Positions 1 to 11,693 of a DNA stretch of 12,379 nt are shown in pieces. Made by a program: the position numbers and the translations under genes. The notes beneath the pieces are model-generated. The model was not told the origin of the DNA. It did not search any database and was given only the letters and a program-made list of their open reading frames with translations. The stretch comes from Deltaproteobacteria bacterium. GTDB taxonomy: Bacteria; JAUYMQ01. Position 1 is the stretch's first letter. The number at the start of each line of letters is the position of its first letter. The stretch is from positions 1 to 12,379 of the forward strand of contig JAUYMQ010000612.1 in NCBI GenBank assembly GCA_030698575.1, read 5' to 3'.

Positions 1-89
1 CACGGCATAGGTCCTGCAGACTGAAAACACGCCCCCCGAGCGTGCTTGCCGTGGTCCTCATTCTTCAGGGCCGTCTTCAGGAGACAGCA

Positions 90-1299: not shown

Positions 1300-1815
1300 G
1301 TGGCGCTGACGGCTAAGCAGGAGGCGTTTGCCCGGGCTGTTGCTATTGGTGGCATGAATCAAACGGCTGCTTACGCAAGTACATACGAAGTTGGCAAATC
1401 AACCCAGAAGAGCATTCAAGACTCAGCCTCTCGGCTGGCGGCAGAGCCCCAGGTCAAAGCCAGGATTAAGCTGCTAACAGAGAGAGCGGCGGGCGTCGCC
1501 GTGAAAAAGGCGGGGCTCACGCTCGCGCAGTCAATGGCTGAGGCTGAGAGCCTGCTCGAGGATGCCCAGGCCCTGGGCCAGATCAGTGCCGGCGTTGCCG
1601 CTGCCAAGCTGCGTGCCCAGCTTGCGGGGCATCTCGTTGAAAAGAAAGAAGAAAAGACAGGTCCGCTCACTGATATGGACGTGACCTCGCTCCTGGCCTT
1701 GAAGGCCGAAGTGCAGGCCCAGCTTCAGCGGAACAAGGATGCCCTGGACCTGGTTGGTGACCTCGAGTCGCACGTCGCTGTGCCCTTGCCCCTCATGCGT
1801 AGGGTTATCGGCTAG
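1300..1815 (+). CDS. terS: Terminase small subunit
   Basis: The small terminase subunit binds the phage packaging site and hands DNA to the large subunit. The 171-residue product begins LTAKQEAFARAVAIGG followed by N-Q-T-A-A-Y, the pattern of the Terminase_2 family, whose N-terminal helix-turn-helix recognises DNA. Residues ~35-60 (SIQDSASRLAAEPQVKARI) continue the family's helical region with the usual 'A..p.V..ri' element. The rest is helical, ending in a Gln/Leu-rich segment that may drive ring oligomerisation. The length fits the family. The start is a GTG with TAAGGA at 1287-1292, 7 nt upstream. terL does not follow directly: about 1.4 kb containing a structured spacer, a nuclease gene and three small genes lies between them. 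The call rests on family pattern plus context. Confidence 0.85.
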   Translation: MALTAKQEAFARAVAIGGMNQTAAYASTYEVGKSTQKSIQDSASRLAAEPQVKARIKLLTERAAGVAVKKAGLTLAQSMAEAESLLEDAQALGQISAGVAAAKLRAQLAGHLVEKKEEKTGPLTDMDVTSLLALKAEVQAQLQRNKDALDLVGDLESHVAVPLPLMRRVIG

Positions 1816-1830
1816 CGAGTCCTACTACAG

Positions 1831-1888
1831 GCACCAGTGATGCGTGTATTATCAATGGCTTAGGCCGTGATTGGTACACGCATGGTGC
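1831..1888. repeat. Long imperfect hairpin, 58 nt
   Basis: The outer stem GCACC (1831-1835) pairs with GGTGC (1884-1888). A 4-nt bulge (1836-1839) follows. ATGCGTGTA (1840-1848) then pairs perfectly with TACACGCAT (1875-1883). Inside are two G-T wobbles and an A-T pair, a 3x3 internal loop, and a distal stem (1855-1859 with 1864-1868) capped by the tetraloop TTAG (1860-1863). Pairing on both strands makes it a candidate RNA element or protein-binding site. No T tract follows, so a simple intrinsic terminator is unlikely. Confidence 0.7.
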
Positions 1889-1890
1889 AC

Positions 1891-1927
1891 TCGTGCGCGT
1901 GATCGTCACCTGACGCGCGCCGCACGA
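1891..1927. repeat. Second inverted repeat downstream of terS
   Basis: TCGTGCG near 1891-1897 pairs with CGCACGA near 1921-1927 (7 bp). An inner alternative stem pairs GCGCGT with ACGCGC around a 12-nt loop. The two pairings compete in part, so the exact fold is uncertain. It lies 2 nt after the larger hairpin. Confidence 0.5.
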
Positions 1928-1957
1928 CGGGCGTTCGGTTGACCACCCTTTCGGGCA

Positions 1958-2002
1958 GGGGGCCGGCCCTCCCTTTTTCCAGGCCGGCGCCGCGCGGCCC
2001 CC
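1958..2002. repeat. Very GC-rich nested inverted repeat
   Basis: GGGGGCC (1958-1964) is complementary to GGCCCCC (1996-2002). Within it GCCGGCC (1962-1968) is complementary to GGCCGGC (1982-1988), with a pyrimidine-rich loop containing CCCTTTTTCC. The two stems share bases 1962-1964, so they are alternatives or a partial nest. Either would be very stable. Confidence 0.6.
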
Positions 2003-2125
2003 ACCCGGCACCCCCGCGGCGATGGGACCCGCGGCGTGGGTACCCATATCACGTGGCGATAGAGGGTCTAACAAAAATTTTTCTTCTGAATCAACGAACT
2101 TGCTATTTTTTACAAGGAGCGTCTG

Positions 2126-2479
2126 TTGCCCTCTCTCGATCGAGCTGTGCGCCGCGCCACCGAGAAGAGGTATATCCAGCGCCACCCCGATAAGCGCAAG
2201 GTTATAAAAAAAGACGCAAAATTGCGTGCCCTTGGATTCGCAAAGGGCGAATACCAAGAGGCCCTTCTACTCCAAGGCAATCGCTGTGCGATATGCGCCG
2301 TGGACTTCGCTTCTATCTCCTCGCGCCAAGTGTGCGCTGACCATGATCACGCCACCGGCCAGGCGCGCGGGGTCCTTTGCAACAATTGCAACACGGCCAT
2401 CGGGATGCTGAAGGACTCGCCAGAACGGCTCCTCGCTGCGGTTCGGTATCTGGAGCACCCGCCACTCAGTCTCGTCTAG
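2126..2479 (+). CDS. Endonuclease VII-type HNH nuclease (short form)
   Basis: A 117-residue protein with a complete endonuclease VII core: Zn knuckle C54-x2-C57, DHDH at 72-75, RGVLC at 81-85, then C88 and N89, followed by a helical tail (LLAAVRYLEHPP). The short N-terminus is basic (KRKVIKKDAKLRALG). The start is TTG at 2126. It is rare, but AAGGAG at 2114-2119 sits 6 nt upstream, and the frame is closed by TGA at 2087-2089, so no better start exists. Known relatives cleave branched DNA or act as homing nucleases. This copy shares the core but not the repeat-rich N-terminus of the nuclease at 90-641. Its place between terS and terL, just after a structured spacer, fits either a mobile nuclease or a factor used in packaging. 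The family call is firm; the role is inferred. Confidence 0.88.
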   Translation: MPSLDRAVRRATEKRYIQRHPDKRKVIKKDAKLRALGFAKGEYQEALLLQGNRCAICAVDFASISSRQVCADHDHATGQARGVLCNNCNTAIGMLKDSPERLLAAVRYLEHPPLSLV

Positions 2480-3022: not shown

Positions 3023-3217
3023 GTGAACGAGTACTACCCCGATTACTGGACGGCGCCGCGCGTGCCCTCGCCAGATCCGCATTATCTTCGGTCGGCGGTA
3101 CCCGCTGGCCGCTGGGTGTTCGTTCCGGATCACCCGGCGCCTTATGTGCCACCCTGGGTTCCCTCCATTACGGAGCCATACATACCGCCCTGGCTGCCGA
3201 ACACGATCGTTTGCTGA
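3023..3217 (+). CDS. Pro/Trp/Tyr-rich small protein
   Basis: A 64-residue product starting at GTG 3023, one base after the stop of the Cys-rich mini-gene. Its stop TGA shares a base with the terL ATG (TGATG at 3215-3219). It is rich in Pro, Trp and Tyr. The C-terminal third holds two similar units, YVPPWVPSITEP and YIPPWLPNTI. No membrane segment or known domain is visible. The frame also opens at GTG 2990, which would add 11 residues but overlaps the previous gene; neither start has a clear ribosome site, so coupling is assumed. Function unknown; the WPP-like repeats could form an extended protein-binding tail. Confidence 0.5.
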   Translation: MNEYYPDYWTAPRVPSPDPHYLRSAVPAGRWVFVPDHPAPYVPPWVPSITEPYIPPWLPNTIVC

Positions 3218-4668
3218 TGCTGGTCGCCACAGATACCGCGTCCCTGCAACGGCAGAACAACGAAATCGAGCGAGCGCTCTCGTACAACCAGCTCGCGCAG
3301 TACGTACCGTATCCCAAGCAGTTGGAGTTCCATTCCGCGGGCGCGAACCCGGATGTCCGGGAGCGTTTGCTGATCGCCGGGAACCAGTTGGGCAAGACGC
3401 TTTCCGCCTCCCGCGAGGCGGCGATGCACGCAACAGGCCTGTACCCCAGCTGGTGGCCAGGTGTGCGCTTCCTCAAACCGACCACCGGGTGGGCGGCATC
3501 CATTACTTCGCAAGGCACGCGCGACACTGTACAGCGGATGTTGCTCGGCCGCCCTGGTGAGTTCGGCACCGGCTCGATACCGAAGGCCTCGATCATCGAG
3601 GTCAAGAAGGCGACCCACGGGGTCGCGGACTCGGTAGAGACGATCACCGTCCGGCACCACCCGACGGGGGGCACCAGCCGGATCACACTCAAGACCTATG
3701 ATCAAGGCAGAGAACGCTGGCAGGGCGACACGCTTAATTGGGTTTGGTTTGATGAGGAGCCGCCCGAGGACATCCATACCGAGGGTATGACCCGCACGAA
3801 TGCTACCGGCGGCATTGGGTTCATGACCTTCACACCGTTGCTCGGCATGAGCACGGTCGTTAAGTGGTTCCTAATCGATAAAGCACAGGGCACCCACGTC
3901 ACGACGATGACGATCGAGGATGCGCTCCACTACACGCCGGAGCAGCGCGTCAATATCATCGCCGCCTACCCGGCGCACGAGCGCGATGCTCGCGCGCGCG
4001 GGAAGCCGATCATGGGGTCCGGTTTAGTCTTCCCGTTTGAAGATGAGTTGATCGCGGAACCCCCGTTGCAAATTCCAGACCATTGGCCACGGATCGTGGG
4101 AATTGATCTGGGATACGGACACCCGTTTGCCGCGGTCTGGATTGCGTGGGATAGGGATACCGACACAGCCCATCTCTACGATACATACCGCCGGAAGGAA
4201 GCCACGCCCATTACCCACTCCGCGGTGATCCGCGCGAAGGGCGCCTGGATACCGGTCGCGTTCCCGCACGACGGTGAGAACCGCGACGGCCGCAATAGCG
4301 GTCTGACCGTCGCGCAGCAGTTCCGCGACCTCGGCTGCAACATGCTGAAGGTGCGCGCGACGCACCCGCCCGCGAAGGGGCAGAAAGAAGGTGATGGTGG
4401 CATCTCGCTTGAAGCTGGTCTCAGCGACATGTTCGATCGCATGCAGACCGGGCGCCTGAAGGTCGCCAAACACCTTGCCGATTTCTTCGAGGAGAAGAGC
4501 ATGTACCACCGCAAGGATGGCCTGGTGGTCAAGGAAGGTGACGATATTTTATCGGCCACTCGCATCGCGTTGATGATGCTGCGCTTCGCGAAGGTAAAAC
4601 AGGCTCCGCGCGAAGCCGCGATTCCGGGGTTCAAACCGACTGTAAGGGGTGTGGGGATGCTCGGATGA
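3217..4668 (+). CDS. terL: Terminase large subunit (packaging ATPase and nuclease)
   Basis: This 483-residue motor cuts concatemeric DNA and pumps it into the capsid through the portal. The N-terminal ATPase has an adenine-binding YPKQLEFH element (32-39), Walker A GNQLGKT (55-61), Walker B VWFDEE (176-181) with the catalytic Glu, and a coupling motif MTFTPLLG near 205-212. The RNase H-like nuclease begins at RIVGIDLGYGHP, with D297 as first acidic residue. HDGE near 351-354 and GDD at 441-443 in the GDDILSATR segment supply the other acidic positions. All key residues are present and the length is normal. I prefer the ATG at 3217 over the TTG at 3211 because it overlaps the upstream stop. 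There is no strong ribosome site, so coupling is likely. It overlaps the downstream HNH gene by 4 nt. Confidence 0.95.
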   Translation: MLVATDTASLQRQNNEIERALSYNQLAQYVPYPKQLEFHSAGANPDVRERLLIAGNQLGKTLSASREAAMHATGLYPSWWPGVRFLKPTTGWAASITSQGTRDTVQRMLLGRPGEFGTGSIPKASIIEVKKATHGVADSVETITVRHHPTGGTSRITLKTYDQGRERWQGDTLNWVWFDEEPPEDIHTEGMTRTNATGGIGFMTFTPLLGMSTVVKWFLIDKAQGTHVTTMTIEDALHYTPEQRVNIIAAYPAHERDARARGKPIMGSGLVFPFEDELIAEPPLQIPDHWPRIVGIDLGYGHPFAAVWIAWDRDTDTAHLYDTYRRKEATPITHSAVIRAKGAWIPVAFPHDGENRDGRNSGLTVAQQFRDLGCNMLKVRATHPPAKGQKEGDGGISLEAGLSDMFDRMQTGRLKVAKHLADFFEEKSMYHRKDGLVVKEGDDILSATRIALMMLRFAKVKQAPREAAIPGFKPTVRGVGMLG

Positions 4669-5312
4669 AGATCTGTTCGGTTTGTGCAGTGGATAAGGAA
4701 GAGAGCGAGTTCTACAAGATGGGCGCCGGGCATCGTGCCCGTTGCAAGAAGTGCGACAGCGCGGACTCCGCTGCTTGGCGCGCGGCGAACAAAGAGTATG
4801 ACACCGCGAGAAACGCTGCTTGGCGCTTGGCCAACCCGGAGCAAACCGCGGCCGCTAAGAAAGTCTGGCACCAAGCCCACCGAAGCGAGGCGAATAAGCG
4901 TCGCAGAGGATGGAGCGATGAGAAGCGGGCGGAAGTTAAGGTGGTAGCCAAAAAGTATCGGGCGACAAACGCCGAAAAAATAAAAGTAACAGAGCGTGCG
5001 TGGGTTGCGAATAATCGGGAAAAGGTGAATGCAGGGAACGCCGCTTGGAAGAAAGCGAACCCAGCAAAAATTGCAGCGATCAACGCGCGCCGCGAAGCCG
5101 ATAAGATCCGCGCCACCCCCGCGTGGGCCGACCTCGAGGCGATCAAGGACGTTTACGCGGAGGCCGCGTACTTCGGCATGCACGTCGACCATATCGTTCC
5201 CTTGCGCGGGAGGACCGTCTGCGGTCTCCACGTCTGGGACAACCTGCAGTTGCTCACGCCGAAAGAGAACATAGCCAAGGGCAACCGCCACTGGCCAGGG
5301 ATGTCCGGCTGA
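4665..5312 (+). CDS. HNH endonuclease with N-terminal zinc knuckle and helical repeats
   Basis: A 215-residue protein in three parts. Residues 4-30 hold two CxxC pairs (C4, C7, C27, C30), a probable zinc finger. Residues 37-145 are a basic helical stretch of imperfect ~16-18-residue units built on A-W-R/K-x-A-N-P/x-E/K. The C-terminus is a classical HNH: H173-V-D175-H176-I-V-P-L, G182, W191-D-N193-L, N202-x2-K205. HNH proteins cleave DNA, and some HNH proteins encoded beside terminases are known to be needed for cos cleavage and packaging in other phages. The start ATG lies in a 4-nt overlap with the terL stop (ATGA), so the two are translationally coupled. This core differs from the two endonuclease VII-type genes upstream, so the three are not simple duplicates. 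Confidence 0.9.
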   Translation: MKICSVCAVDKEESEFYKMGAGHRARCKKCDSADSAAWRAANKEYDTARNAAWRLANPEQTAAAKKVWHQAHRSEANKRRRGWSDEKRAEVKVVAKKYRATNAEKIKVTERAWVANNREKVNAGNAAWKKANPAKIAAINARREADKIRATPAWADLEAIKDVYAEAAYFGMHVDHIVPLRGRTVCGLHVWDNLQLLTPKENIAKGNRHWPGMSG

Positions 5313-7676: not shown

Positions 7677-9482
7677 ATGACAATCGCAGTCAGGGGCACT
7701 CCGCAGACAGGGGCAGGCACCAACGGCGGGGACATAACCCTTACCTTCACCACAGGGGCGGGGGCGCCGGTAGAGGGGGATGTAGTTGTTGTTTTCGGTG
7801 GTCACGGTGTCACGGTAACGACGCTTGCGGCTCCGGGGTCGGGATACACTCAGATAGGCATTCACACCGGGTCCGCCCCCATCTTCGGGGCGTGGTACAA
7901 AGTTATGACGGCCACGCCGGACCTGAGCGTGGTGTGCAGTGGTGGCGGCAATGCAAGTGATGGCGTCGCGTACTGCTGCTGGGTATTTAGTGGGGTGAAC
8001 GCCGCTGTCCTGGACCAGACCACGGTAACCGCCGGACCGACCGCGAGCACGAATCCGGACTGCGCCTCTATCACCACCGTAACCGCGAACGCTTGGGTGC
8101 TCGCGATGGCCGGGAGCGCCGTCAACGACGCCGCAATAACAGGACCGACAGGTTATGCGAATACAATCGACGACAACGGCAATGATGCCGCCGATATTAC
8201 CGCTGGCGGGGGCACGTTAGCCGTAGTTTCCCCCGGGGCTACCGACCCTGCCAGTTGGACGGCATGGGCATCCGGTACATGGTACGGGATTACTGCAGCG
8301 CTTAAACCCGCGGTATCGACGGCGTACACGCAGGATCTCGGTACCTGCGCGCTGTCTTTTATAGGTGTGCAAGCCAAGTCGACCAGTCGGGCGGTAACCG
8401 GTGCGCTCTCGTTCATCGGCGCGCAGACCAAGAATACAAGCAGGGTGTTAGCGGGAGCGCTGTCCTTCATCGGCGACGCTGCGAAGGCAACGAGCAGGGC
8501 GCTGACCGGGGCACTCTCCTTTGTCGGCAACCTAGCAGCCTCTAAGCTGGTTTATCAGGCACTCGAGGGGGTGCTGAGTTTCATCTCCACGAGCACGACC
8601 TGGGACGCGTTTACGTGGGACGCGTTCACCTGGGACGCTGATACCGTCACCAAGCAGGTCAATAAGGTAACGTCTGGTACGTTGTCTTTTGTTGGTGAGC
8701 AGATCAAGTCGATCACCCGAGCGCTGACGGGTACTCTGTCGTTCATCGGCGCCACGGCGAAGGGGACGAGCAGGGCCGTCACCGGAACGCTCTCGTTTGT
8801 CGGATCGATGCTTCGAGCATTCCCGAAGGTGCTCACCGGGGGGCTGTCTTTTATAGGTGTGCAAGCCAAGTCGACCAGTCGGGCGGTAACCGGTGCGCTC
8901 TCGTTCATCGGCGCGCAGACCAAGTCGATCACCCGAGCGCTGACGGGTACTCTGTCGTTCATCGGCGCGATGCTACGAGCTTTCCCCAAGGCATTCACCG
9001 GGGCGCTCTCTTTCATTGGCACGAGTACCCGGCGTGCCAGCAGGGGTCTCACAGGCGTTGTGTCGTTCATCGGGTCCACTCCCTTGCGGGTGGTGGCCCG
9101 CGCGCTCGCAGGAGCTGTGAGCTTCGTCGGCGCGAACACCAGGCGCACCAGCAAAGTCCTCGCGGGCGCTCTCTCGTTCGTCGGACAGGTGATCAAGCGG
9201 ACGGCCAGGAGCACGACCGGCGCGCTCTCCTTCGTTGGCAACGCGGTAAAGACATCAGCAAAAGCATTCACCGCGGCCTTATCGTTCGCAGGGACGTTCT
9301 CTAAGCAAGCAGGTAAGGCGTTGGCTGGTGCACTCTCCTTCGTTGGGTCGAAGGTAGCGGGGACGTCTAAGGCCCTCATCGCGAGCCTGAACTTCATTGG
9401 CCTCCTGGAATCTGTCGGTTCCGAGGTCGCCAGTACGGTGGTCAGCATTCTGGTCTGGGCCCGCCGTATGGGCCGTAGATAA
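7677..9482 (+). CDS. Repeat-rich virion/tail-type protein with nineteen 18-residue repeats
   Basis: A 601-residue protein. Residues 1-~218 form a Gly/Thr-rich beta domain of the kind found in phage appendage proteins (GDITLTFTTGAGAP, ending WYGITAALKPA). Residues 224-587 are nineteen units close to A-L-S-F-I/V-G-x3-K/R-x-T-S-R/K-A-L-T-G, mostly exactly 18 residues. Unit 4 is 20 residues and unit 5 is 36, carrying a tandem W-D-A-F-T insert. The end is a short basic tail (WARRMGRR). The regular spacing suggests a beta solenoid or elongated stalk. The start ATG has no strong ribosome site; a GGGGG run lies ~25 nt upstream. Identical DNA blocks between units show recent internal duplication. Tail fibre, tail needle or stalk are possible; the exact role is unknown. 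Confidence 0.75.
   Translation: MTIAVRGTPQTGAGTNGGDITLTFTTGAGAPVEGDVVVVFGGHGVTVTTLAAPGSGYTQIGIHTGSAPIFGAWYKVMTATPDLSVVCSGGGNASDGVAYCCWVFSGVNAAVLDQTTVTAGPTASTNPDCASITTVTANAWVLAMAGSAVNDAAITGPTGYANTIDDNGNDAADITAGGGTLAVVSPGATDPASWTAWASGTWYGITAALKPAVSTAYTQDLGTCALSFIGVQAKSTSRAVTGALSFIGAQTKNTSRVLAGALSFIGDAAKATSRALTGALSFVGNLAASKLVYQALEGVLSFISTSTTWDAFTWDAFTWDADTVTKQVNKVTSGTLSFVGEQIKSITRALTGTLSFIGATAKGTSRAVTGTLSFVGSMLRAFPKVLTGGLSFIGVQAKSTSRAVTGALSFIGAQTKSITRALTGTLSFIGAMLRAFPKAFTGALSFIGTSTRRASRGLTGVVSFIGSTPLRVVARALAGAVSFVGANTRRTSKVLAGALSFVGQVIKRTARSTTGALSFVGNAVKTSAKAFTAALSFAGTFSKQAGKALAGALSFVGSKVAGTSKALIASLNFIGLLESVGSEVASTVVSILVWARRMGRR
8346..9437 (+). repeat. Array of 19 coding repeats (54-bp unit)
   Basis: The DNA underlying units 1-19 of the repeat protein. 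Most units are 54 bp and keep frame throughout. Exact copies exist at 8351-8432 and 8843-8924 (82 bp, offset 492), and at 8705-8752 and 8921-8968 (48 bp, offset 216). Other units have diverged strongly at DNA level while keeping the LSF[IV]G core. Confidence 0.9.
8601..8645 (+). repeat. 15-bp tandem repeat coding W-D-A-F-T
   Basis: Three adjacent 15-bp units start TGGGACGC at 8601, 8616 and 8631, encoding WDAFT, WDAFT and WDADT. They interrupt unit 5 of the 18-residue repeat array and account for its extra length. Confidence 0.85.
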
Positions 9483-10085: not shown

Positions 10086-11693
10086 ATGGCCTCAACCCCA
10101 GCAACCATCATCACAGCGAACGCCGTCAAAGGTCAGCCCGGTTCGGGCGACGCCGGTGGCGCACTCGAACTCGTCGGCGGTCTCGGTGGCACCTCTAGCG
10201 AAGGCGGCGTAGCCTCCCTCACAGGGGGCGCGGGTACCGCGGCCGCGGGAGCGCGTGCGGACGTTATCGGCGGCGCCGGCGGGACAGGCGACTCAGCCGG
10301 CGGCGCGGTCAACGCGACCGGCGGCGCGGGCGGGGCCACGAACGGGGTAGGTGGCGTTGCCACCATCAAGGGCGGCGCGGGTAACGGTTCAGGCGCCGGT
10401 GCGGCGGTTGTTGCTGTCGGCGGTGTCGGCGGCGCGACGGGCGCGGGCGGCGCGGCCAGCCTCAAAGGCGGAGCGGGCGGCGGGACCTCTGGTTCCGGTG
10501 GCGCGGCCACCCTCCAAGGTGGAGCGGGCGGCGCGGCGACAGTGGTCGGCGGGATTACCTACGTCACCGGCGGAACCTCGCTGACGAGCGGCACGGGCGC
10601 GGCGGTAACGATCACCGGTGGCGCCACGGGGACCACTGGTAGCGGCGGACCGGTCAATATCACGGGTGCCGTCAGCGGTACGACGGGTGCAGTAAACGGC
10701 GGCGCGGTCACGATCGCGGGCGGTGCAGCGGGCGCAGGTAGCACGGGCGCGGGCGGCGCGGTCTCACTGATCGGTGGCGCGAGTGGCAGCGGCGCAACGG
10801 GCGCGGGCGGTGCGGCGACCCTCAAGGGTGGCGCGAGCGGCTCGACCAACGACGTGGGCGGCGTACTGACCCTTGCCGGCGGTGCGGGCACGGGCACGGG
10901 CGCAGGCGCTGCGATCAATATGACCGGCGGTGTCGGCGGAGCGACCTCGGGCGCAGGTGGCGCGGTAGCTGTCGCTGGCGGCGCGGGCGGAACAAGCAAC
11001 GGTGCCGGTGGTGCGGTTTCAAGCACCGGTGGTGCGGCTACTGGCGGGAACAACGCCGGCGGCGCGGCGAGTTTGATTGGCGGCCTGGGTACAGGTAGTG
11101 CCGCGGGCGGTGCGATCACCATCACCTCCGGTGCGGCGGGTGCAACCGGCGTCGCGGGAGCGGTTGACATCGCGGTCGGTGCAGCTACAGCAGGCGCAGG
11201 CTCTACCGCGACCATTTCTGGTGGCGCGGGCGCTGGCGGCACGGCAGCGGGCGGTAATGTCGATCTTATCCCTGGTGCGGCGGTCTCTACCGGCGTCCCG
11301 GGCGAGGTCATGGTCAATAGCGTCGCGGGCATCTTCTGCGTGAGCTACATCCAGGGTATCGCTGGAGAGGCCACCGCGGACCAGACCTTCTTCGTGGCCC
11401 CGCGTGATTGCCGTATCCAAGCAATCTCGCAGGTGCACTCGGTAGCACAGGGTGCGGCGGCGACGTGTGTGATCTCGAAAGAGACGACCACTGGCGCACC
11501 TGGCGCGGGTACCGATGTCATGTCGAACACCTTCAACCTCAACGCGACGGCGAACACGGTTCAGACGGGCACGCTGTCCGGTACCGTTGCCACGATAACC
11601 TTGGCCGCTGGCGACCGTTTGTCGGTCGACTTCAGTACCACGGTTGGCTCGCTGGCGGGTAACGTCATCACGGTTCTCCTGAACCCGGTCTAA
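10086..11693 (+). CDS. Glycine-repeat fibre-like protein with C-terminal virion domain
   Basis: A 535-residue protein with AGGAG at 10074-10078, 7 nt before ATG 10086. After a short N-terminus, residues 22-405 are about 23 units of 15-18 residues close to G-G-A-V-T-L-x-G-G-A-G-x-G-x-T-G-A. Alternating small and aliphatic residues with Gly pairs suggest a beta solenoid or a polyglycine-type stack forming a stiff rod. Residues ~406-535 are different: SYIQGIAGEATADQTFFVAP, a CRIQAISQVHS strand and GDRLSVDFSTT near the end. I recall this kind of C-terminal domain in phage decoration or head-fibre proteins. It is preceded by two strong terminators, so it may have its own promoter. Likely a virion-exposed fibre or decoration protein; the host receptor or partner is unknown. 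Confidence 0.75.
   Translation: MASTPATIITANAVKGQPGSGDAGGALELVGGLGGTSSEGGVASLTGGAGTAAAGARADVIGGAGGTGDSAGGAVNATGGAGGATNGVGGVATIKGGAGNGSGAGAAVVAVGGVGGATGAGGAASLKGGAGGGTSGSGGAATLQGGAGGAATVVGGITYVTGGTSLTSGTGAAVTITGGATGTTGSGGPVNITGAVSGTTGAVNGGAVTIAGGAAGAGSTGAGGAVSLIGGASGSGATGAGGAATLKGGASGSTNDVGGVLTLAGGAGTGTGAGAAINMTGGVGGATSGAGGAVAVAGGAGGTSNGAGGAVSSTGGAATGGNNAGGAASLIGGLGTGSAAGGAITITSGAAGATGVAGAVDIAVGAATAGAGSTATISGGAGAGGTAAGGNVDLIPGAAVSTGVPGEVMVNSVAGIFCVSYIQGIAGEATADQTFFVAPRDCRIQAISQVHSVAQGAAATCVISKETTTGAPGAGTDVMSNTFNLNATANTVQTGTLSGTVATITLAAGDRLSVDFSTTVGSLAGNVITVLLNPV
10149..11300 (+). repeat. Glycine-rich coding repeat array
   Basis: The DNA for about 23 units of 45-54 bp, extremely rich in GGCGCGGGC-like strings. 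Reverse-strand open frames across it are Pro/Ala-rich mirror images and are not genes. Unit lengths vary (15-18 residues), so it is less regular than the array at 8346-9437. Confidence 0.85.

Follow-up and report, generated by a model that had tools for sequence, protein, structure and literature searches.

The analysed stretch of DNA (the window) carries phage packaging and head genes and spans contig C179 of a 4.1-Mb MAG over its full length of 12,379 bases. The gene for the terminase small subunit TerS (1300-1815, plus strand; phrog_51, E=4.9e-10) is followed by a non-coding spacer of 310 bases (1816-2125), an EndoVII-like HNH nuclease gene with a TTG start at 2126 (2126-2479, plus strand; PF02945, E=4e-20), small genes and the gene for the terminase large subunit TerL (3211-4668, plus strand). 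This TerL is P22-like (Terminase_6N/6C; phrog_2) and 40% identical to the TerL of PaP3. Another EndoVII-like HNH gene (90-641) is separated from TerS by two small genes, and a third HNH gene is located at 4665-5312, which places three EndoVII/HNH-type nuclease genes around the terminase genes within a span of 5.3 kb.

A first-pass annotation had described the spacer as the gene-free region of an otherwise gap-free sequence. From the end of TerS at 1815 to the nuclease start, no credible gene was found; the window has, however, further gene-free gaps at 642-805 and 2480-2560. The first of these, 164 bases long, separates the first nuclease gene from the ORF that follows it and contains no recognised gene. 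Positions 1-70 (plus strand), 5' of the first EndoVII-like gene, match the Rfam int-alpA RNA (RF02996, 40.8 bits vs a cutoff of 35.8); the match is truncated by the contig end and has no integrase or alpA beside it. Two repetitive proteins without convincing family match are encoded at 7677-9482 (repeated 'ALSFIG...TSRAVTG' units) and at 10086-11693 (glycine-rich, with 'GGAGG'-type repeats).

The inverted repeats that the same annotation had described are present, and the spacer contains more of them than its dinucleotide shuffles. For arms of 7 nt, 9 repeats were observed vs 1.5 expected (P about 0.002), for 8 nt 3 vs 0.33 (P about 0.02) and for 9 nt 1 vs 0.09 (P about 0.07). The proposed direct repeat CCCGCGGCG is exact, with copies at 2013 and 2028 (2013-2036), and the sharp shift to AT-rich sequence was likewise found, with a GC fraction of 0.925 at 1980-2019 and of 0.325 in the part that begins at 2060. 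The AT-rich tail reaches 2125 rather than ending at 2113. Folding of the spacer against shuffled controls gave z-scores of -3.76 for the plus and -2.64 for the minus strand. The strongest hairpin is situated at the 5' end (1831-1888) and combines an outer stem, GCACCA/TGGTGC, with perfectly paired arms of 9 bp (1840-1848/1875-1883). A weak terminator-like GC stem followed by T5 is found on the plus strand at 1958-1978 (2 overlapping matches vs 0.4 expected). The right half of the spacer consists of a GC block (1965-2017), the direct repeats, a box on the plus strand with the sequence GGGTCTAACAAAAATTTTT (2064-2082), which forms the centre of the element as GGGTCT-AAC-AAAAATTTTT, and, 33 bases on from GGGTC, the motif AACTTGC with an imperfect inverted repeat (2097-2116). 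When the spacer was shuffled 3000 times, a box of the GGG(N)TC type turned up in only 2 of the resulting sequences. An Rfam search of the spacer returned nothing at threshold, and BLAST against 50,697 phage records gave chance matches only.

With nhmmer, homologs of the spacer were detected in C38 (L090), a second contig from this MAG (E=3e-4), and in L002 (E=0.004). A further homolog is present in L249/L250, with E=2e-10 when the window was the only query and E=1e-14 for a profile of three sequences. All these elements are located 5' of related TerL genes; the TerL proteins of L002 and C38 are 67% and 74% identical to that of the window, and the L249 TerL is 78% identical to that of C38. The gene order of L249 (p806-p1074-TerS-spacer-p2990-TerL) equals that of the window minus the nuclease gene, and the TerS proteins of the two are 59% identical. 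L002 has a tRNA-Met gene (444-519) between the element and TerL, at the place of the nuclease gene of the window and C38.

Alignment of the homologs, a check suggested with the first-pass annotation, showed conservation of the right half (about 1965-2116) in C38, L249/L250 and L002, whereas the left half, which includes the strongest hairpin, is common only to the window and C38; the 5' hairpin could not be aligned in L249 or L002. The GC block is 77% identical in L249 over 53 nt (E=3.5e-8) and 85% identical in L002 over 40 nt (E=4e-7). The window and L249 have the conserved block GGGTACCCATA in common; CCCGCGG also occurs in two copies in L249, and direct repeats are present in these two sequences only. 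GGGTC and AAATTTTT are unchanged across the four homologs. AACTTGC with its inverted repeat is kept in three of the four and is not conserved in L002. The inverted repeat is a perfect 8-bp repeat in L249, where the region 2097-2116 is 90% identical over 20 nt, imperfect in the window and absent in L002. A pattern scan with the GC block gave, save for L002, chance matches without a box, and a match of L290 to the 5' half of the spacer was located inside a TerS-like gene and was discarded as chance.

This pattern of conservation bears on two alternatives raised earlier. A structured RNA of the TerS-TerL transcript would be in line with the z-score of the plus strand and with three compensatory pairs in the 5' hairpin between the window and C38 (two sequences only). 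However, this hairpin could not be aligned in L249, AT and GC words of single-strand-like character make up the conserved blocks, Rfam gave no match, and the consensus fold of the conserved core of four sequences gains nothing from covariation (+0.88 kcal/mol, unfavourable), which makes such an RNA very unlikely. Equally, we see hardly any likelihood that the spacer is a scar or homing target of the adjoining nuclease gene. A nuclease gene is found 3' of the element in the window and C38, and HNH genes are present near the box in two further viral contigs (L125 and L157), but L249/L250 and L002 contain the element with no nuclease gene between it and TerL. Because L249 has the element without the nuclease gene, an insertion scar is contradicted; for the same reason, the EndoVII-like gene (2126-2479) was presumably inserted 3' of it.

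The box resembles sequences near the ends of cos phages. In D3, HK97, Marinobacter AS1, lambda (cosQ) and Che8, the right end of the record is preceded at a distance of 25-45 nt by a GGG(N)TC box, and the right end of phiC31 has a degenerate form. We take the record ends to be the physical ends for lambda, HK97, D3, Che8 and phiC31; AS1 is known as a record end only. Five of the six cos phages have GGG(N)TC near the right end, where 1.9 would be expected from shuffled sequences (P=0.005), and a looser pattern also permitting CC gave P=0.18 for the same six phages. Lambda needs cosQ, a highly conserved site, to make the terminating cut (PMC4669245).

Like the lambda cos site (cosQ-cosN-cosB), whose GGGTCC box is situated to the left of the cut at a distance of about 30 nt, the element of the window combines such a box with a nearby A/T tract and adjacent terminase genes, and occurs once per genome. 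It differs from lambda cos in its position 3' of TerS and in the P22-like TerL, and no R sites or IHF site were identified in it. The 3' cos sites of the HK97/D3 type share a G-rich GGG(N)TC + AAA..TT box 43-45 nt from the right end and, in D3, AS1 and Che8, an HNH gene beside the box; in contrast, the TerL of the window belongs to another family, and its HNH gene is EndoVII-like and missing in L249. With P22, whose 22-bp pac is located inside TerS, the window shares a P22-like TerL and a site tied to TerS, but its element is outside TerS, and the P22 pac sequence had no match in the window at up to 3 mismatches. The Bruynoghevirus phages PaP3, LUZ24 and Delta also have a P22-like TerL, an extra gene between TerS and TerL and tRNAs nearby; unlike the window, PaP3 has no GGGTC + A5T5 box at its record ends. 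PaP3 was dropped as a cos precedent for P22-like TerL, since its cos is disputed in the literature; the ends of Delta and LUZ24 are reported as direct terminal repeats of 182-184 bp (PMC8540360).

A scan of IMG/VR with the pattern GGGTCYNNNAAAAATTTTT, derived from the window and L002, revealed 57 stretches, 20 of them within 2.5 kb of TerL, vs 35 stretches and none near TerL (0/35) for the permuted control pattern GTGGCYNNNAAAAATTTTT. The majority of the 20 loci come from a single clade, L096 and its relatives, where TerS is directly preceded by the box and a G-rich stretch and followed by TerL and portal. L125 represents another lineage with an HK97-type TerL and its HNH gene beside the box; in L116, the box has the opposite orientation. 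Given this predominance of a single clade and the use of L002 in defining the pattern, the independent support amounts to two or three lineages. Parts of the box-bearing lineages also have CCTAYG ahead of the box or AACTTGC 31-36 nt past the box start; in C38 and the L096 clade, AACTTGC is 33-36 nt away from GGGTC. Only one copy of the box is present in each of nine viral records (two mismatches allowed) and in the MAG (one mismatch allowed). Among TerL relatives of at most 67% identity, L002 excepted, no box was found 5' of TerL, which, on the sequences compared, counts most strongly against a general role of the box. In a comparison of 21 contigs, contig ends were found close to the box (Fisher P=0.006), with an offset that is not fixed: the end of L148 is 34 nt from the GGGTC start, as predicted, and those of L143 and L128 are on the opposite side of the box. 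This clustering is suggestive only.

The spacer could also combine a terminator of the TerS transcript with a promoter of the TerL operon, the A-tract acting like an UP element, and would then be conserved as regulatory DNA. The terminator-like stem with T5 (1958-1978), the A5T5 tract 40-60 nt 5' of the next gene in the window and C38 and, in the L096 clade, its position 5' of TerS at the start of the packaging and head genes agree with such a role. We nevertheless consider it unlikely: a search of the spacer for sigma-70-like promoters found none, the box matches lambda cosQ and the cos ends of D3 and AS1 rather than a promoter, and it is single-copy, which promoters need not be.

We therefore favour, with moderate confidence, a conserved DNA element that is most likely a recognition or cleavage site of the terminase, a function deduced from sequence comparison. 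The pac or cos site proposed in the first-pass annotation is thus the best supported of its three suggestions, as the box recurs beside terminase genes, once per genome, and resembles lambda cosQ and HK97/D3-type boxes; it stands as a proposal, and the ends might be cohesive (cos), headful (pac) or terminal repeats. The conserved blocks, the single copy, the proximity to TerL in several lineages and the likeness to cos ends argue for a packaging site, and the reversed orientation in L116, the TerL relatives without a box, the lack of a conserved AACTTGC in L002 and the position 3' of TerS argue against it, as does the P22-like TerL family, which includes headful (P22) and terminal-repeat members (Delta, LUZ24) (PMC8540360).

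As a terminase site, the spacer would be the sequence that the terminase recognises, and the replicated concatemer would be cut near there. The GC-rich repeat block at the left may provide TerS contacts, the box at 2064-2082 would act as a cosQ-like GGGTCY motif with a bendable A5T5 tract, and the AACTTGC inverted repeat at 2097-2116 would be the likely cut region. Terminase binding, cutting and the kind of ends are inferences here. More tentatively, a lambda cosQ-like box of GGGTCY and an A/T tract might mark the terminase site for terminases of the P22-like, epsilon15-like and HK97-like kinds, and the sequence of an uncultured genome would then suffice to locate its packaging site. In this clade, such a site would be situated between both terminase genes and might serve as an insertion place for nuclease genes. 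For uncultured phages, the usual guess of packaging type and genome ends relies on the terminase protein, an unreliable guide within the P22-like family. If the box marks the site in several terminase families, ends would become predictable from contigs; for this clade, the specific candidate cut region is about 2094-2116.

An attachment site was also considered, as CGAGTCC..GGCACCAG in the spacer resembles tRNA 3' ends. This was rejected, since the matches were tRNA-like ends or chance and a second copy was not found in the MAG. In C38, the TerL gene itself (L090, 1196-3778) contains an in-frame, intein-like insert that splits the Walker A motif (GNQLGK/T) and includes a LAGLIDADG_3 domain.
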